Assembly: GCA_021810605.1 (NCBI GenBank)
Contig: JAJZIL010000008.1
Span: forward strand, 1 to 42,674
Direction of reading: 5' to 3'
DNA: 42,674 bases
Source of the DNA: a bacterium
GTDB lineage: Bacteria; Patescibacteriota; Dojkabacteria; JAKAPS01; JAJZLI01
Positions within the stretch are counted from its first letter, which is position 1. Each line of letters begins with the position of its first letter. The notes beneath the pieces were generated by a model, which worked only from the letters and a program-made list of their open reading frames with translations, made no database searches and was not told the DNA's origin. Position numbers and translations under genes: made by a program. Shown piece after piece: positions 4,403-14,771 of this stretch.

Positions 4403-5758
4403 TCAAATAGCTTCTGAAACCGAAGACAAATTAAAATCTTCAACTACACAATATGGACAAATAACAGATGAAAGAAAACTGTCCCCAAACTCTCTAGGAG
4501 TTGATAAATAGGACTTTGAGAAAGAGGTAATATTCTCCAAAACCTTTATGGGAGATTGATTAAATCTAAAATTATTAATACTATATACAAACCTACCTTT
4601 CTCTATTTTATATACCCCATCCCTAGTAAGTCCTGTAAGAAGTCCAGTTATAGGATCCACTGATCTTATATACCAAAGATTATTTATATAAATTGCATTA
4701 TCAATATCCTTAATAAAATCTAAATATTCTTTATCAGATCCTTCTAGTATTAGATTTGATACAGTAGGAAGATTATTTTTATATTTCATTTTCTGATCAT
4801 AATACCTTGTAGATATTAAACCTTTAACTACTCCATTTTCTATAATATTCTGCTTTGAAAGAGATTGTCCTATATCAAATATAGGATTTACTCCAGAGGT
4901 ATCAAAAATTAAAAATGGAATTGATTTTATATCCTTTATAAAAGGATCTGTATATAGATTAATATATTCTGGAAATACTTTTTTGCCTAATAGATCTTTG
5001 AAAGGAGATCTTTTCTCATCAGCATCCTTAGCTAAAAGAAAGAAGCTCATATACATAAGTAAATCTCCTAAAGCTGAAGGAGATAGAACTACTTTATATC
5101 TACCAGGATCTAAATCTTTCTTTATACTAGTATATTTATAATCTTTTAACAGTTGTGTATATATATTTTTCAATAAATCTATATTACTCACTGAAGATAT
5201 ATCTGATCTCCAAACTGATCGAGTTAATTTATCATTTTTAATATTCATTGAATAAGAAAATCTAGGAATAGTAGTTCTCTTCAATAAGTTAACTGAATTG
5301 ATAATTGATATATTTGATATCTCTCCTGTAATATATCCAAAGATTTTTATTCTTTTATCCTTATTGAATATCAAATGTAGATAATCTTCAATTTCACTTA
5401 CTTCTTTTTCAAAATTTAAAGAATTTTCAGTAGAATCATCATATTTTTCATCTTCTATAAGTGGAGTATATTCTTCATTCTCTTCTGCCTCTAAAGCTAT
5501 TGAATAAGATTTCTTAATACATTTTATAACAGATTCTTCTGATAAATCTGTTGTAGAGGATACTCCAACTTTTTTATCAAGAATACTTGTAATTTCAACA
5601 AAAGAATTAGATGATACTCTATTTGATATAATCTTACTATCAGAAAAGCGTATATTATACTCAGAATTATCATATAAAATAGCATAATACTGAGCATCTT
5701 TTTTATTATCTTCCAGAATTTTTTTTAATTTTTCAATATTCATTACATTAATTTTCAT
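4403..5758 (-). CDS. tldE: TldE/PmbA-like partner subunit of the TldD peptidase
   Basis: 451 aa. TldE forms a heterodimer with TldD, a metalloprotease that trims unfolded or modified peptides; TldE itself has no metal site, and none is seen here. Recognition rests on overall pattern and context: it directly follows and overlaps tldD by 11 bp, with a DGVYKIEKGR motif and a region near residues 370-400 typical of the family. Two starts are possible, at 5758 and five codons later at Met6; the first gives the ATG overlap and is kept. The C-terminus has two Cys (CPYC) not usual for TldE; their role is unknown. Confidence 0.8.
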   Translation of the reverse strand: MKINVMNIEKLKKILEDNKKDAQYYAILYDNSEYNIRFSDSKIISNRVSSNSFVEITSILDKKVGVSSTTDLSEESVIKCIKKSYSIALEAEENEEYTPLIEDEKYDDSTENSLNFEKEVSEIEDYLHLIFNKDKRIKIFGYITGEISNISIINSVNLLKRTTIPRFSYSMNIKNDKLTRSVWRSDISSVSNIDLLKNIYTQLLKDYKYTSIKKDLDPGRYKVVLSPSALGDLLMYMSFFLLAKDADEKRSPFKDLLGKKVFPEYINLYTDPFIKDIKSIPFLIFDTSGVNPIFDIGQSLSKQNIIENGVVKGLISTRYYDQKMKYKNNLPTVSNLILEGSDKEYLDFIKDIDNAIYINNLWYIRSVDPITGLLTGLTRDGVYKIEKGRFVYSINNFRFNQSPIKVLENITSFSKSYLSTPREFGDSFLSSVICPYCVVEDFNLSSVSEAI

Positions 5759-7208
5759 TTTTTGTATTTAATACTTTAATATTTTCAAATAAAGAAATTG
5801 GAGCTCCATGAGATACCGGAGCTACTTGTGATGGTTGTCCTTTTCCACAATTAAATGCACCTTCTAGAGAATAGGTACTTTTCCCCCCAATCTCAATACA
5901 ACTTTTCCAAAAATCTTGTGTATTTGATTGATAAGCAAGATCTTTAATCATTCCTATAATTTTACCTGATTTTACTTCATAAAAAATATTTCCTGTAAAT
6001 TGAAAATTATATCTTTGCATATCTATACTCCAACTTCCATCTCCTAGAATATATATACCATCATTCATAATATTCAGCATATCGCCAAGTTTAAGATCTT
6101 TAGATTCATTTGGTAAAAGTGATACATTAGGCATTCTCTGTAGAGGAAAGGATGAATATGAATCTGCAAAAGAGCATCCATTAGAGTGATTCATTCCAGA
6201 GATAGATGCAATTTCTCTATTTGTCTGAAGATTCTCTAATACTCCATTTTTTATAATATCAAACTGAGTTGTCTTAACTCCTTCATCATCATATTTTATA
6301 CTAGCCAAACCATTTTTTTGATTTCTATCTCCTACTATATTTACTTTATCAGATCCATACACTAAATCGCCCATTCCAGAAACTGTTGCAAAAGATGATC
6401 CTGCATAATTTGCTTCATAAAGAAGTACTCTATCCATTTCAGTTGAATGTCCAATTGATTCATGAATTGTTAGCCACAGATTAGATGGATCAATTAAGAG
6501 ATTATATTTTCCTTCTTTAACTGATTTGGCTTTTGATTTTTCATATATATTCTCTGCTGCTTTTGGAATTTCTTCTTGAAATGGATAATTTTTAAAGTAC
6601 TCATAACCTTCTCCGACAGGTCTAGTATTGAGTTTTAAAGTTGTAAGTTCAGGAATAGTTTTATATAACATAAAATGAGGATATATTCTTGTTCTTTCTT
6701 GATATATATCGGAACCAGATGAATTTAGATAAAGTTTCTTTTCAAATACTTGAACAAGTGATGCATCAGAGAAATCTATATTTTTATATTTTAATAAATC
6801 ATTTTGTATTGATTTTATATATTGTATTTTTTCAGAGATAGGAGTATCAAAAGGATTTATTATAACAGACTGAATATCTTCATCTTTATAAATATCTTCT
6901 GTTGTTAAAGTAACTCTACCTTTAGGAAGACCTACCACCATATTTACTGCCTTAGAGAAAGCCTCCAGAATTGAGACCTTTGTTATAATATTTGATGAAG
7001 AAAATCCCCAATTACCATTCAAAAGTACCCTCACTGAAAATCCTTTACTTTCAAGATTATATATATTTTCCAAATTTAGATTTTTAAAATATATATTCTC
7101 TATTAAATCTTCTTGAAATCTTATTTCACAAAAATCTATTTTTTTTAAATTACTGGATTCCAAAAGAGATTTTGCATAATTTCTATAAGTGAATTTATCA
7201 AAAGGCAT
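5748..7208 (-). CDS. tldD: TldD metallopeptidase
   Basis: 486 aa from the chosen start. It is the catalytic subunit of TldD/TldE, a cytoplasmic zinc protease. HESIGH at residues 249-254 is the family HExxxH metal site, followed by EMD. The conserved Cys is in NCGKGQPSQVAPVSHG near the C-terminus. The frame stays open to 7262, but that extension reads MSRVRAPSSA, the known spurious translation of a tRNA 3' half; it lies inside tRNA-Gly. The first ATG outside the tRNA is at 7208 (MPFDKFTY), so I start there. It is followed by tldE in the same operon. No Shine-Dalgarno sequence is seen. Confidence 0.9.
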   Translation of the reverse strand: MPFDKFTYRNYAKSLLESSNLKKIDFCEIRFQEDLIENIYFKNLNLENIYNLESKGFSVRVLLNGNWGFSSSNIITKVSILEAFSKAVNMVVGLPKGRVTLTTEDIYKDEDIQSVIINPFDTPISEKIQYIKSIQNDLLKYKNIDFSDASLVQVFEKKLYLNSSGSDIYQERTRIYPHFMLYKTIPELTTLKLNTRPVGEGYEYFKNYPFQEEIPKAAENIYEKSKAKSVKEGKYNLLIDPSNLWLTIHESIGHSTEMDRVLLYEANYAGSSFATVSGMGDLVYGSDKVNIVGDRNQKNGLASIKYDDEGVKTTQFDIIKNGVLENLQTNREIASISGMNHSNGCSFADSYSSFPLQRMPNVSLLPNESKDLKLGDMLNIMNDGIYILGDGSWSIDMQRYNFQFTGNIFYEVKSGKIIGMIKDLAYQSNTQDFWKSCIEIGGKSTYSLEGAFNCGKGQPSQVAPVSHGAPISLFENIKVLNTKNEN

Positions 7209-7232
7209 TTTATGTAGATAGATAAATAAATT

Positions 7233-7305
7233 AGCAGAAGACGGGGCTCGAACCCGCGACAACTAGTTTGGAAAACTAGTACTCTACCAACTGAGTTACT
7301 TCTGC
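7233..7305 (-). tRNA. tRNA-Gly (anticodon UCC)
   Basis: 73 nt. The acceptor stem GCAGAAG pairs fully with CTTCTGC, with discriminator U as usual for tRNA-Gly. The palindromic anticodon stem ACTAGT/ACTAGT encloses loop TTTCCAA, giving anticodon TCC (reads GGA, a common Gly codon in this window). The T-arm CGGGTTCGAGCCCCG is present. CCA is not encoded. It lies 24 bp upstream of tldD on the same strand. Confidence 0.95.
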
Positions 7306-7951: not shown

Positions 7952-10087
7952 TTAGAATACCATTACTGAAACTCCAATTGATAGTATTATTAATCCTGCT
8001 AATACAAATATATTTATAGGTGCAGTTCCTGCAGTTTGAGGTAATTGTTGTTGTGCAACAACAATTGGAGTTACAGGTTTTTGAGCGATACAGCTACTTG
8101 AAACAGCTACACTTGTTGTTACATTAAATTTCTGTCCTGCTGAATTTTGTAACCAACCAGTAACTGTATATTCATCAGTACCATTAGCACCTTGCCAAAT
8201 ATATTCTCCTAATTGAGCAGGTGTATTAGGAAGATTATATATAACATTTCCTGTTGTAGTATCTGTTATATATCCTGTGAAAATATCAGTACTTGAAACA
8301 TTGTTAGCCTGCCACTGAATAGTTAAATTATTAGTGGTATTATTTTCACAAACAAAAGATATAGAAGACATTATAGGAACTTGAGGTGTAATACACTGAC
8401 TTACACTAGAAGTTGAAGAAGTTATAGTATTACTCTTTCTATCATTTCCATTAATGTATCCAACTACCACATATTGGTCAGTAGAATTAGCACCATTCCA
8501 AATATAAGATAATTGAGATACTGGAGCTGTAAATGTAGCAACAGCATTTGTATTTGTTGTTGTATCATTAATAGTTCCATAGAATGTACCAGTTGTAGAG
8601 TTATCTTGACTAGTCCAACCTACTGCAAGATTTGATGATCCTGTTACACAACTTAAAGTTACAGTACTAAGTACTGGAGCTGTAACGTGATTTACACATT
8701 GATAAAAGTTTACATTTCCTGAAGATACAGTTGTACTTCCTCCAGAATATGAAAGAGTCAATGTTGCAGTATAGTTATCTTGAGTATTTTCTAAACTTTG
8801 TACAAATGAATTATATGTACCTGCTGCAATAGTTTCTGTAGGAAGAGTTGTTGCAACAGTATTTGTTGTAGTATCTGTAATATTACCAGTTATACTATCA
8901 CCACTTACAAAATTATCTGTACTCCATGTTATACCATTACATCCCATACTTACTGCTAATGTAGGAGTAGGTGTAGGTGTAGGTGTAGGTGTAGGTGTAG
9001 GAGTAGGTGTAGGTGTAGGTGTAGGTGTAGGTGTAGGAGTAGGTGTAGGTGTAGGAGTAGGTGTAGGTGTTGTATGTGACACACAGTTATAAAAGTTTAC
9101 ACTATCAGTCTGCGTATACATATTTTGTCCACCTCCATAAGTTACACCCAAATTCACATAGTAAGATATATTTGAGTTTTCTAGTGATGATACAAAATTA
9201 TTTACATTACCTGATGCAGTATTTGATCCAGAGATATATGAATATATAGATCCATTAGATGTATTTTTAACCTCACCACTAACAGTATCTCCATTTGTGA
9301 AATTTGAGATATTCCAATTAAGTCCACTACATGTTAATTTTGCTGATAATACAGGAACTACAGGTTTAACTACTGGTGCTGGAGGAGTTACACTTATTGT
9401 ATATACAGGAATAGATGTTCCATTTACAAGATTAATAGTTCTACTACCATTTGACTGGGTCCAATTAGAAGGTAACCCATTAAGATTATAATTCTCCGGA
9501 GAAAAAGCACAATCTAAAACCTGAACATATCTCATAGTAACTTCAGATCCATTACTATTCACTGATCTTGTAACTTCACCATTTAAATGACTACAACCAT
9601 AACCAGATGAACAGCTAAAAAGAGTACTATTTGTTGAATTACCTCCAACAGTATAATCTGGAAATACCTGATAAGTACTAGGAGCTTCTCCTGTAGATTT
9701 ATGGTAATTTAATATTGATAACTGATCTATATATGATCCAGGTGTTATATCTGTAGATTTTATTAAAGGATCTTGAAGAGAACTATTATATCCTGGATCC
9801 CAAGGAATTCCATTGTCCCAACCATTGTGACATTGAGCTGTTCTCATCGAAAGAGATAAAGAATTTGGAAGTGGTACTGATGAATTAGTTGATTGAACAA
9901 CAATTGCTACAGATGCAAAGTATGCAATATTTCCACTTAGCTTACAACTTGCAGCTGCATGTAGATTAACACTCGACTTATTTGCAAAAAAAGGATTTGA
10001 TGCAATAAGTGCAAGAAATATAATATTCAATGTTATAAATATAGTTATTATTAAATGACTATATTTTAATTTAAATTTCTTAAACAT
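7952..10087 (-). CDS. Large exported repeat protein with Thr-Pro linker and LPQTA-plus-membrane tail
   Basis: 711 aa. An N-terminal signal or membrane segment (about 10-30) ends near ANKSS/HAAA. Then come a globular region (to about 240), two similar Ig-like or beta-sandwich domains (about 245-335 and 378-470) separated by a pure Thr-Pro repeat (about 338-376), and two further related domains (about 475-570 and 575-670) with the pattern YIWxGAN(S/G)TD(Q/E)Y. The C-terminus has LPQTAG at 682-687 followed by one hydrophobic helix to the last residue. This looks like an LPxTG-type sorting signal but lacks the usual basic tail. Probably a surface or stalk protein. No ligand can be inferred. No sortase lies in the window. 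Confidence 0.8.
8961..9070 (-). repeat. Hexanucleotide tandem repeat encoding a Thr-Pro linker
   Basis: About 110 bp of GTAGGT/GTAGGA hexamers, read on the minus strand as alternating Thr and Pro codons. Copy number can change without frameshift. It forms an extended, rigid spacer between two domains of the surface protein. Confidence 0.9.
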
Positions 10088-10197: not shown

Positions 10198-10758
10198 ATG
10201 ATAGTCATAAATTTTCAAAATATAAAGACTCTGTACTCTGCAGAAAAATTCTTATATAGATTAGAAAAAGAGCAGTATGATATAGATAATATTATAATAA
10301 TACCAAGTATAATAGATATTAAGGATTTTAAAAATAAATTTAAATTTAAAATAGGAATACCTTATTCACAAAATAGTGAATATATTACAAAAAAAGACAT
10401 GAAAAATTTAAATTTATTCTATGCACTACTAAATCATAAAGATAATTTAATAGGATACAATAGTATGTATGAGGCTATAAAGAAGCTTAAAAATAGTAAT
10501 GTACGTACTATCACCTACTCTTACAATCCGAGTGAATATGATAAAGTAAGATCATTAGAGAGTGAATATATAGTAATAAAGACTAACAATATAAATAATA
10601 TTTCTAAATTTCCAATTGATACTAATGACAAAGTATTTATAGATTACAAATTTAAAAATTATAATGATATAGAAAAAATAGACAAATTTGGAATAAAAGG
10701 GTTTATAATAAAACCATACATTAAAGATTTTATTTTACTTAAAAATTATTATCTATGA
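10198..10758 (+). CDS. Triosephosphate isomerase homologue (archaeal type) without key catalytic residues
   Basis: 186 aa. It aligns by eye along its whole length with archaeal TpiA (about 225 aa). MIVINFQ matches AINFKTY, ALLNHKDN (His80) matches TLLNHSEN, YSYNPSEY matches CSNNPA, and YIVIKTNN matches YVAVEPPE. Triosephosphate isomerase interconverts dihydroxyacetone phosphate and glyceraldehyde-3-phosphate. Here the catalytic Lys is Gln7, the catalytic Glu position holds Lys128, and the phosphate-binding GAGIS-like turn has become DYKF; only the His remains. The protein is also about 40 residues short. It overlaps the GapN-like gene by 4 bp, a fitting metabolic neighbour. It is either a non-catalytic derivative (regulator, scaffold) or a decaying gene whose frame is still open. 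Homology is an inference from memory of the family. Confidence 0.65.
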   Translation: MIVINFQNIKTLYSAEKFLYRLEKEQYDIDNIIIIPSIIDIKDFKNKFKFKIGIPYSQNSEYITKKDMKNLNLFYALLNHKDNLIGYNSMYEAIKKLKNSNVRTITYSYNPSEYDKVRSLESEYIVIKTNNINNISKFPIDTNDKVFIDYKFKNYNDIEKIDKFGIKGFIIKPYIKDFILLKNYYL

Positions 10759-12227
10759 TTAAAGAATTTATAAGAAACAAAAAATTTGGATATTTGGTTG
10801 ATAACCAATGGATAATGACTTCTAAAACTAAAGATACTCTCTCTCCAATTGATGATACTCTAGTAGGGAAACTCCCATTGATGAATACTCAGCAAATTGA
10901 TGAATGTATAGAATCATCTTTTAAAGCTTTTGTATCTTGGAGAGATACTCCCATTAATTACAGAGTAAACATACTAAGAAATGCTGAAAAAATTATAAGA
11001 GAGGAGAGTGAGACTCTTGCAAACCTTATTGTTGAAGAGGTAGGGAAAGCATATTATGAATCACTTGATGAAGTTATACGTACAGCAGATATAATTAATT
11101 TCTATGCAGCAGAGGCTCAGAGAGTATTAGGAGAAGTCTTATACTCTGAATCATTCCCTGGATTTGGAAGAGAAAAAATTGCTATAACACAAAGAGTCCC
11201 ATTAGGAGTAGTTGTATCAATTCCACCATTCAATTATCCTCTAAATGAAACAATGCCTAAAATAATAGGAGCAATTCTAGCTGGAAATACAACTATACTA
11301 AAAGCTCCTAATCAAGGAGGAGTGGTTTGCATGGTGATAGGAGAAATTTTCAGAAGATCTGGATTAGATAAGGGAGTTTTAAATATAGTATCAGGAGATA
11401 ATGAAATAGCAGGAGATCATCTTTTAAAATCAGAAAAAATAAATGCATTAAATTTTACAGGAGGAACTAAAACAGCACTTCATATACAAAAAGTATTATC
11501 TCAAAGAGAAGTTGTTATCCCTACTATTCTTCTAGGATTAGGTGGAAAAGATGCATCTATCATTCTCTCTGATGCTAATATAGATATTGCAGCTGACAAA
11601 GTTGCAACTGGAGCATTCACATTTTCAGGACAAAGATGTACTGCAATAAAGAGAGTTTTGATTGATAACACTATTGCAGATGTATTTATAGAAAAACTTA
11701 TCAAAAAGATAAAAGATAAATTTATATTAGGAAATCCTAGAGATAGAAAGAATACTCTTGGTCCAGTAATTAATGATTCTACTGTAAACTATCTTCATAT
11801 CCTTAAAGCTGATGCTATAAAAAAGGGTGCAAAAGTTATACTTTCTGGAGAAGATGAAGGAAGATATATTTATCCAATAGTTTTAGATAATGTATCAGAA
11901 GATATGAGAATTGCATGGGAAGAACCTTTCTCTCCAATACTTCCTATAATAAGAGTTGAGAGTATTGAGAGAGCGATCGATATAGCTAATAGATCTGAAT
12001 ATGGATTGCAATCAAGTATTTTTACCAATGATATAGATAAAGCATTCTTAATTGCATCAAAATTAGAAGTTGGTAATGTACAGATTAATGGGAAGGATTC
12101 TAGAGGCCCAGATAATTTTCCATTTAATGGAGTAAAACAATCTGGAATTGGAAATATACAAGGAGCTAAATATTTAATAGAGTCTCTCACTAGAATTAAA
12201 ACTACAGTTCTAAATTTCAATAATTAA
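10755..12227 (+). CDS. gapN: GapN-like non-phosphorylating glyceraldehyde-3-phosphate dehydrogenase
   Basis: 490 aa, a full-length aldehyde dehydrogenase. GapN oxidises glyceraldehyde-3-phosphate to 3-phosphoglycerate with NADP, bypassing the ATP-making step. Subfamily marks are VIRTAD, PPFNYPLN (catalytic Asn), FSGQRCTAIKR with nucleophile Cys295 and its neighbouring Arg, EEPFSPILPIIRV, and the GapN tail QINGKDSRGPDNFPFNGVK followed by SGIG. The usual LELGGKDA motif reads LGLGGKDA: the catalytic Glu is Gly261 (codon GGA at 11535-11537, one base from GAA). That residue normally activates water for deacylation, so activity may be impaired or altered. The gene overlaps the TPI-like gene (ATGA) and is followed 5 bp later by uvrC. 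No Shine-Dalgarno sequence. Confidence 0.88.
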   Translation: MIKEFIRNKKFGYLVDNQWIMTSKTKDTLSPIDDTLVGKLPLMNTQQIDECIESSFKAFVSWRDTPINYRVNILRNAEKIIREESETLANLIVEEVGKAYYESLDEVIRTADIINFYAAEAQRVLGEVLYSESFPGFGREKIAITQRVPLGVVVSIPPFNYPLNETMPKIIGAILAGNTTILKAPNQGGVVCMVIGEIFRRSGLDKGVLNIVSGDNEIAGDHLLKSEKINALNFTGGTKTALHIQKVLSQREVVIPTILLGLGGKDASIILSDANIDIAADKVATGAFTFSGQRCTAIKRVLIDNTIADVFIEKLIKKIKDKFILGNPRDRKNTLGPVINDSTVNYLHILKADAIKKGAKVILSGEDEGRYIYPIVLDNVSEDMRIAWEEPFSPILPIIRVESIERAIDIANRSEYGLQSSIFTNDIDKAFLIASKLEVGNVQINGKDSRGPDNFPFNGVKQSGIGNIQGAKYLIESLTRIKTTVLNFNN

Positions 12228-12232
12228 TATTT

Positions 12233-13561
12233 ATGAGTGAGGAGATTAGTATATTTCAAAAAGATTTTTTAAAAAATCTACCTCTTACTCCAGGTTGTTA
12301 TCTATATAAAGACAAAGATAAAAAAATTATATATATAGGTAAAGCAAAAATTATAAGAAAAAGGGTTTCTCAATATTTTTCTAACACACTAGATTTAAAT
12401 TTAAAGACATTAAAAATGATTGAAAATTCAGTATCAGTATCTTATATCGAGACCGATAATGAATTAGAAGCATTAATATTAGAAAGTAATTTAATCAAAA
12501 AATATAAACCTAAATATAACATACTTCTAAAAGATGATAAAAGATATGCATGGATAAGAATTACAAATGATGAATTTCCTAAAATAGAGAGAGTTAGAGA
12601 AAAGATTAATGATGGATCTAAATATTTTGGTCCATATCCTTCTGGAAAAACTATAATAGCTTTACTGAGTAATCTTAGAAAAATATTCCCCTATAGAACA
12701 TGTAATCTTAAAATATATGAAAATCAAAAAATTACTAAATCAAGATTATGTATTTTTTATGATATAAATCTTTGTCCAGGACCTTGTGACTCATTAATAA
12801 GTAAAAAAGTTTATATGAAAAATATAAGAAATATTGATAAATTTTTATCTGGAGAAAAATATTCTATGGTAAAGAAAATTGAAAAGCAAATGCTTAGAGA
12901 AAGTAATAAAGAAAATTTTGAAAAAGCAGGAGAGTTAAAAAAACAAATTGACCAGATAAATTATATTACTCAGAACATAAAAGTTGATTTTGGAGATGAT
13001 GAGAATATATTTAAGAATAAAAAAGAAATTGATAACATTGCAGCTTTAAAAGAATTATTTGAAATAATTGGTGTAAAATATAAAACTGGTAGAGTTGAAT
13101 GTTATGATATATCTAATATACAAGGAAAATTTCCAGTATCATCAATGGTAGTTTTTAGAAAAGGTGATATGTCTCCTTCATATTATAGAAAATTTAAGAT
13201 AAGAAGTCAGGACACTCCAAATGATCCATTAATGATGGGAGAAACTCTCAGAAGAAGATTCACTCATAAAAACTATGATGAGAGCTTTTCAGAGATTCCT
13301 GATCTTATTATTGTAGATGGAGGAAAGACACAACTTAATTCTGGAGTAAGTATTTTAAAAGAGTTAGACTTAGATATTCCTATTGTAGGACTTGCAAAAA
13401 AAAGAGAGGAAATATTCAGGCCTGGAGAAAAGGATCCAATATTAATTGGATATCATGAAAGATCTCATCTACTGATAAGACGAATTCGGGATGAAGCTCA
13501 TAGATTTGCAATTACATTTCACAGAAAACTTCGATCAAAGGGTTTTATTAGCTCTAAATAA
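12233..13561 (+). CDS. uvrC: UvrC nuclease subunit lacking the C-terminal HhH domain
   Basis: 442 aa against about 600 in typical UvrC. UvrC makes both incisions in nucleotide excision repair. Present are the GIY-YIG nuclease (GCYLYKDKDKKIIYIGKAK, residues 21-39, then RKRVSQYF), a Cys-containing middle region, the UVR motif that contacts UvrB (FEKAGELKKQIDQI), and the RNase H-like 5' nuclease with Asp292 (CYDISN), Asp362 (IVDGGKTQLN) and RDEAHRFA (Asp420, His423). The protein stops just after [12 protein letters not shown], where the helix-hairpin-helix DNA-binding domain normally begins. The stop region overlaps the convergent VKOR gene by 27 bp, so no lost extension is hidden downstream. 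Confidence 0.93.
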   Translation: MSEEISIFQKDFLKNLPLTPGCYLYKDKDKKIIYIGKAKIIRKRVSQYFSNTLDLNLKTLKMIENSVSVSYIETDNELEALILESNLIKKYKPKYNILLKDDKRYAWIRITNDEFPKIERVREKINDGSKYFGPYPSGKTIIALLSNLRKIFPYRTCNLKIYENQKITKSRLCIFYDINLCPGPCDSLISKKVYMKNIRNIDKFLSGEKYSMVKKIEKQMLRESNKENFEKAGELKKQIDQINYITQNIKVDFGDDENIFKNKKEIDNIAALKELFEIIGVKYKTGRVECYDISNIQGKFPVSSMVVFRKGDMSPSYYRKFKIRSQDTPNDPLMMGETLRRRFTHKNYDESFSEIPDLIIVDGGKTQLNSGVSILKELDLDIPIVGLAKKREEIFRPGEKDPILIGYHERSHLLIRRIRDEAHRFAITFHRKLRSKGFISSK

Positions 13562-13963
13562 ATATTTATAAAGACTTATAAAAAATATACTGATTGCAAT
13601 AAGATGTATACTACTGCAATAAAGACATACTGAATGAATTAATCCAAACTCTATATAAAGAAGTGCTGCTACAATAAAAAGTGATATAGTTGATAGAATT
13701 AAGATTATAATATCAGTTTTTTTTATAAAAGATAGAACTATTAAAAGTATAAAATATAAAAGACCAAATATTGGAAGAGGAATACCAAAGAAGCTTGAAT
13801 AACTACTAGTAAGAACATTTGAACAATTTATAATCCCTACGTCTGGACAAGCTAAAGACATTGGGGAATAATGTACATATAAAAGATATATAGATATAAA
13901 GACAGCTATCAGAGATAGTATTGGAATACTATATTTTAGAGCATACGTTTTGAGGTTTTCCAT
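13535..13963 (-). CDS. Vitamin K epoxide reductase (VKOR) family thiol oxidoreductase
   Basis: 142 aa with four membrane segments (about 12-30, 60-80, 84-105 and 118-134). Bacterial VKOR reoxidises a DsbA-like partner and passes electrons to a quinone. The active-site pair is Cys113-Leu-Tyr-Cys116; the loop pair is Cys39 and Cys47 in [13 protein letters not shown], followed by the conserved Ser-rich FFGIPLP turn. It starts inside the upstream DUF929 gene (35-bp overlap), so the two are surely coupled. The call is firm from the Cys layout and topology. Confidence 0.92.
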
Positions 13964-14771
13964 TAGTTATTTGACAAATACTTTGGATTATTCTTCCTGC
14001 AGAAGATAATATCTTTACTGATAGACTACTTGTAGGTTTGTTATATATAGTATTTATAATACTAGTCCAATTCATACCCTTTAATGTAGCTGGAGAATAT
14101 TGAGCTCCTACTATTAAACCTTTATTTCCAATATCTATAAAAGGTATTGATCCTGCTGATGATTTTGCAATATATGGATATGAATCAAATTTTGAAAATA
14201 TACTATTTTCTATGCTTGTAGGAGTCTGAAGAGGAGTATAACCACCTTGAGAAGGGACATTAGTAGCAGTTTCAGTTGGAGTAAAAGATATATATCCTGA
14301 TGAATAAGAAAATTTATAAAATGTAAATGTAGGAGTTGATGGATAAACATCTATTGCTGATGATGTCATATAGTGAAGTGTATTAAATGTCCCAAATTTA
14401 GATAGTGCTATTACTAGTGCCCATCTCTCTGCAGCACAGAAAGGACAAAAATCTGCCCCTACATAAATAATCCTAGGCAAATTATCCTTTTCTATTGAAG
14501 GTTCACCAGTAATTGGTGTTACACTTGTTGCTGATGACTTTGATGATAATGCACTTTTTATATTGGATAATGATACATTCTCTAATTTACTTACGACACT
14601 AGGGGATACCTTTTTATTATCAAAACTTACAAGTTTATTTGTTACATTTGAAACACTATTTATAGAATTATTCGCAAAATATATTATTCCTATCATTATT
14701 ACTACCACAACTATTACTATTACTGTGAATATAATGTTGCTATTATTTCTTTCTTTATTATTTTTAGACAT
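13929..14771 (-). CDS. DUF929 family membrane-anchored thioredoxin-fold protein
   Basis: 280 aa. N-terminal membrane anchor at about 13-33, a Ser/Asn-rich spacer, then a thioredoxin-like domain from about residue 95. It begins [20 protein letters not shown] (Cys109 and Cys112 form the CxxC), followed by the DUF929 signature [18 protein letters not shown]. Two more conserved Cys are at 266 and 277 near the C-terminus. The family is best known from Sulfolobus and related archaea and some Actinobacteria. With VKOR encoded next in a 35-bp overlap, the likely job is oxidising Cys pairs in exported proteins outside the membrane, as DsbA does. That role is inferred from context. Confidence 0.88.

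Follow-up and report, generated by a model that had tools for sequence, protein, structure and literature searches.

A triosephosphate isomerase-derived barrel protein encoded upstream of gapN in a family of small-genome bacteria

Triosephosphate isomerase (TPI) is a textbook enzyme and is nearly universal. The closest described relatives of the protein analyzed here are the archaeal-type short TPIs (PRK04302/NF003302 in NCBIfam, PF00121 in Pfam), represented by the enzymes of M. jannaschii (2h6r), P. woesei (1hg3) and Ca. Roizmanbacteria (7r9b). The protein, which we call pseudo-TIM, has the same (beta/alpha)8 fold, shares the motif residues N5, N79 and D40, and occupies the operon slot in which a sister family encodes an intact TPI. 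It differs in its length of 181–193 residues (about 220 in the archaeal-type enzymes), in the loss of the catalytic Lys, His and Glu set, the lid loop and the phosphate-binding loops, and in four new invariant residues at the mouth of the barrel.

Pseudoenzymes encoded beside an active enzyme, and supporting it, are likewise dead folds retained under selection next to an enzyme of a related pathway. As a repurposed or pseudo-enzyme, the pseudo-TIM belongs to a kind already known; the TPI-derived case is new within the open-access literature searched, in which no description of such a TPI-derived pseudoenzyme was found (subscription journals were outside the search). Class I aldolases also adopt the TIM-barrel fold, and their Schiff-base Lys is structurally conserved; the fructose-bisphosphate aldolase of T. 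tenax uses Tyr146 and Lys177 (PMC2728841, PMC4881948). The roles of the Cys, Asn and Glu of hydrolytic aldehyde dehydrogenases are established, with Glu268 acting as the base to activate the deacylating water; in RlGabD, a related enzyme, replacement of the equivalent Glu lowers the activity 63,000-fold (PMC10599462).

The pseudo-TIM gene, its surroundings and its ancestry

The window, the whole stretch of 42,674 nucleotides that was analyzed, has 27% GC and carries mraZ, rsmH, Mur-type and uvrC genes. The mraZ, rsmH and Mur-type genes rule out an archaeal or DPANN origin. The host, a bacterium, has a small genome resembling those of Patescibacteria (0.75 Mb, 96% complete). The habitat of its family is probably acid mine drainage, as the naming style of the bins and a survey of acid mine drainage sediments (PMC12153355) suggest.

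The pseudo-TIM is encoded at 10198–10758 on the plus strand by an intact frame of 186 codons. The next gene, at 10755–12227 on the plus strand, encodes a GapN-like aldehyde dehydrogenase of 490 residues, and the stop and start of the two frames overlap in an ATGA at 10755–10758. The ORF coordinates thus agree with an earlier sequence-only reading, which had noted 186 intact codons and an ATGA linking them to a GapN-like gene. Downstream lies uvrC (12233–13561, plus strand), a conserved neighbor. The other side of the operon is occupied, across the family, by a divergent gene whose surface-type product contains a long Thr-Pro repeat (7952–10087, minus strand). Other minus-strand genes nearby are also kept in relatives: a VKOR and DUF929 pair (13535–14771), possibly concerned with disulfide chemistry, and two adjoining TldD/PmbA-like protease genes (4403–7262), for which the Pfam match was checked on one copy from a relative (L021 of G001).

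Taken singly, the pseudo-TIM of the window resembles TPI weakly. The archaeal TPI model PRK04302 of NCBIfam matches it with E=0.0025, far under the cut-off (17.6 bits against a cut-off of 132 for NF003302), and a sequence search gives E=0.12 for the TPI structure 1hg3. A search of the host genome with Pfam TIM (PF00121) yielded no match, the pseudo-TIM included. One further Pfam match, to DUF7138, covers 43 residues and stays below the cut-off (E=0.012); it was dismissed as chance. Three orthologues in the family exceed the PF00121 cut-off, with 34 bits (G005), 31 bits (G006) and 24 bits (G004). The AlphaFold2 model, computed from an alignment of 13 sequences, is a complete (beta/alpha)8 barrel with a pLDDT of 88.3 and a pTM of 0.86. 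The best 15 fold matches of this model in the PDB are all archaeal TPIs, with 2h6r at E=1.5e-10. Because the Pfam scores of the orthologues, the predicted barrel and the fold matches agree, homology of the pseudo-TIM to the short archaeal-type TPI is settled. The TPI fold had been claimed from the letters of the gene, and structure prediction, proposed as its check, returned a TIM barrel and no other fold.

In every genome with a pseudo-TIM, the gene lies directly upstream of gapN. The two genes overlap by 4–20 nt in five of the six family genomes that have both and are separated by a 42-nt gap in the sixth (G004). In the sister family, which belongs to the same order (G040 and G041), the position directly ahead of this gapN is taken by an intact TPI gene, at spacings of 3 and 9 nt; in G041, uvrC also follows gapN, with one further gene between. 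One congener of the host (G002) has kept gapN and lost the pseudo-TIM, leaving 252 bp between gapN and the divergent surface gene (L042:2970-3222). In this interval a five-codon ORF, ATGACTACAGAGACATGA, overlaps the gapN start and keeps an ATGA-type coupling; it could be chance.

In the TPI tree the pseudo-TIMs form one clade (100/100) whose neighbors are not resolved, its placement being hampered by the long stem and the biased composition of the pseudo-TIMs. Since the tree does not place the pseudo-TIMs beside the TPIs of the sister family, their orthology rests on synteny, from which we infer descent from the TPI of the same operon slot. A complete tpiA elsewhere in the genome and in close relatives had been named as something to look for; the profile search found none in the host genome or in the other seven genomes of the family.

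Losses and gains at the barrel mouth

The residues of six pseudo-TIM copies were compared in an alignment with 29 intact TPIs from across the phylum, all 29 of which have the catalytic Lys, His and Glu. In the window's copy, Gln7 occupies the catalytic Lys site of strand 1, His80 the catalytic His site and Lys128 the catalytic Glu site, so the replacements of Lys and Glu read from the single sequence hold in the alignment. The Lys position is Q/N/G/K/H/H in the six copies, and the Glu position in strand 6 is Lys in every one. The sequence-only reading also stated that only His80 remains. This residue is indeed present in the window's copy; the position, which follows strand 4, is H/T/D/S/S/S across the six, and because of this variation His80 appears to be a chance survivor in one species.

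The remaining TPI elements are gone as well. The lid/loop-6 region has lost about 15 residues, the GAG motif of loop 7 is replaced by Asp-Tyr/Ile-x, confirming the suspected loss of the phosphate turn, and the 8 residues after strand 8 that form the loop-8 phosphate site are missing, in each case in all six copies. By established TPI chemistry, the predicted protein is excluded from TPI activity on mechanistic grounds. The label non-catalytic, which had been attached to it, is apt for TPI chemistry only, and the protein may have a new activity.

The gene is intact in six of the eight family genomes, the host's own included, over four genera. Six intact orthologues rule out a recent pseudogene or a sequencing error, and the relatives, which might have kept the Lys and Glu, also lack the catalytic set. 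Protein identity among the family copies falls to 31%. Identity to the window's copies is 31–50% for the pseudo-TIM and 57–66% for GapN, showing that the pseudo-TIM evolves faster. Rates were estimated with YN00 from the closest pair only (G005/G006), synonymous sites being saturated in the distant pairs. In this pair the pseudo-TIM gene has dN 0.075, dS 0.53 and dN/dS 0.14, and gapN has dN 0.044, dS 0.56 and dN/dS 0.08. The dN/dS comparison that had been suggested as a check therefore indicates purifying selection on the pseudo-TIM.

The C-terminal mouth of a TIM barrel is its catalytic face. Invariant positions of the pseudo-TIM make up 12 of the 32 on this face and 11 of the 154 elsewhere (Fisher p=3.5e-5, an indicative value, as the face was defined after the invariant list was seen). 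Four of the invariant residues, Tyr107, Tyr109, Lys128 and Asp149, are found in all six pseudo-TIMs and in none of the 29 intact TPIs at those sites; Asn5 and Asn79 are invariant and ancestral. The model and the alignment place Tyr109 after strand 5, Lys128 after strand 6 and Asp149 after strand 7. Added up over its branches, the pseudo-TIM clade has undergone about 4.6 changes per site, so it is unlikely that four free sites would have stayed unchanged by chance. The concentration of conserved positions on one face, together with the four derived invariants, argues against simple decay. The new residues could also simply fill an emptied barrel.

The partner GapN and the pathway around it

The best match of the GapN-like product is S. 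mutans GapN (1euh/2esd), with E about 1e-120, and GapN structures fill the first eleven places among its PDB matches. Catalytic Cys295 (Cys302 of the described enzyme) and Asn160 (Asn169) are kept. Also conserved are R109, Y161, R294 and R450, equivalent to R103, Y155, R283 and R437 of S. mutans, which we take to be the residues that bind the substrate phosphate. The general base is missing: each of the nine GapNs in the order has Gly in place of Glu268 (Gly261 in the window), and all eight outgroups have the Glu. This oddity adds to those of the pseudo-TIM and had escaped the sequence-only reading. The same site is altered in 2esd, a laboratory mutant of S. mutans GapN, whereas the Gly of the order's GapNs is natural. 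A new Glu (Glu165 in the window) appears at S. mutans position 159 in all nine order GapNs (10755–12227 and L036-L044), where the eight outgroups have Leu. A short insertion of about five residues precedes Gly261 in all seven family GapNs, that of G002 included, and is absent from the sister family and the outgroups.

Position 159 of S. mutans GapN presumably corresponds to Met174 of ALDH2. Met174 is a residue of the substrate tunnel that touches bound ligands (PMC10650273). Among possible sites of a relocated general base, Glu165 is the foremost candidate, on the strength of a correlation between the two substitutions. The GapN of the order probably works despite the loss of Glu268, because nothing else was found to connect aldolase/TPI with enolase in the sister family, which has neither GAPDH nor PGK; a ferredoxin-dependent glyceraldehyde-3-phosphate oxidoreductase is a possible alternative bridge there. 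Since Glu268 is gone, a phosphorylating and a CoA-transferring GapN were considered. The former is unlikely, as the searches turned up no PGK for the 1,3-bisphosphoglycerate that it would make. A GapN without Glu268 runs counter to a rule of the mechanism by which hydrolytic aldehyde dehydrogenases work, and a compensating base, for which Glu165 is the candidate, or a new route of deacylation is predicted for the order.

The pathway around GapN was surveyed by profile searches run with positive controls in well-known genomes. GAPDH and PGK were absent from the ten genomes of the order; the sole PGK match (27 bits, G040) sits in a MutS-like ORF and was discounted. The sister family keeps a PF01791 aldolase and enolase, and neither was found in any of the eight family genomes, the aldolase search covering the PF01791 family. 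Transketolase is present in all family genomes, split in the copies examined, and phosphoketolase in four of the eight. These routes would yield glyceraldehyde-3-phosphate and not dihydroxyacetone phosphate. In a family without the PF01791 aldolase and lower glycolysis, the isomerase would thus be dispensable. In the host genome (contig 18, L069:90-3494), a MOFRL gene of the glycerate kinase type lies beside a split transketolase and an FAD-binding (PF01565) oxidase-like gene, in a genome in which no enolase was found.

Proposed repurposing of the barrel and its rivals

We favor the explanation that the TPI barrel was repurposed as the operon partner of GapN, with a rebuilt pocket, and put its probability at roughly 0.5. 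The ancestor would have had a working archaeal-type TPI in a tpiA-gapN operon, an arrangement that survives in the sister family. The family would have lost fructose-bisphosphate aldolase and lower glycolysis, leaving no dihydroxyacetone phosphate to isomerize, and the parts needed for isomerization (Lys, His, Glu, lid and phosphate loops) would have been lost afterwards. The barrel would have been kept and its old active-site mouth rebuilt with invariant Tyr107, Tyr109, Lys128 and Asp149 beside ancestral Asn5 and Asn79. Made by translation coupled to that of GapN, the pseudo-TIM would most likely assist GapN as a subunit or accessory, its pocket holding a ligand or a segment of GapN, and would tune the folding, activity or substrate delivery of the dehydrogenase. 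GapN would oxidize the glyceraldehyde-3-phosphate supplied by transketolase, and by phosphoketolase in some members, to yield NADPH.

A GapN partner was one of three options offered by the sequence-only reading, and with the adjacency and overlap of the genes it is the best fit of the three. Against the partnership, it is dispensable at least in the congener with gapN alone, and the pseudo-TIM evolves faster than GapN.

The main rival is slow decay, in which a TPI made useless by the loss of its pathway is kept mainly through translational coupling to gapN and is on its way out. Decay would agree with the disappearance of glycolysis from the family, the fast evolution of the protein, the free variation at the catalytic Lys and His sites, and the complete loss in G002, where just a five-codon ORF covers the gapN start. 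Six intact frames in four genera at identities down to 31%, a dN/dS of 0.14 and a confidently predicted complete barrel speak against it, and it leaves the four derived invariants unexplained across a clade with so many changes per site. The option of a decaying enzyme is weakened by the purifying selection and by the new invariants at the catalytic face, and we consider it rather unlikely.

A new enzyme is more doubtful. Lys128 and the Tyr of strand 5 would form a Schiff-base site like that of class I aldolases, and the protein would make or cleave a sugar phosphate or another carbonyl compound and pass an aldehyde to GapN. The barrel, the Lys after strand 6 and the Tyr after strand 5 match the T. 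tenax aldolase by position, assuming that its Tyr and Lys lie on the same strands; Asp149 after strand 7 is also invariant, and the PF01791 aldolase kept by the sister family has been lost in this one. However, the phosphate-binding loops of strands 6–8 are gone, strand 1 has Asn5 and Gln7 and no Asp, and no sequence relationship to any aldolase family was detected, the pseudo-TIM locus having no PF01791 match. A combined version, in which a TPI converted to a Lys128 Schiff-base carbonyl enzyme feeds a GapN whose base moved from 268 to the tunnel (ALDH2 position 174), is a long shot. If true, it would be a two-gene catalytic rewiring that replaces lower glycolysis in a bacterial family.

A metabolite sensor that controls GapN on binding glyceraldehyde-3-phosphate or a different phosphate ester would suit the adjoining, overlapping genes and the conserved polar pocket, yet it is improbable, all three phosphate-binding elements of TPI having been deleted or replaced; the triose phosphate sensor of the sequence-only reading is weakened accordingly. 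Least probable is a leader whose translation alone matters, opening the gapN start, as the overlaps in five of six relatives and the mini-ORF of G002 would allow, since selection acts on the pseudo-TIM protein and G004 has a gap and no overlap.

Repurposing of the barrel as a partner of GapN would mean that selection has maintained a TPI fold stripped of all its catalytic elements, with new invariant residues where the active site used to be, a clear case of natural enzyme repurposing, which can be tested with two small genes.
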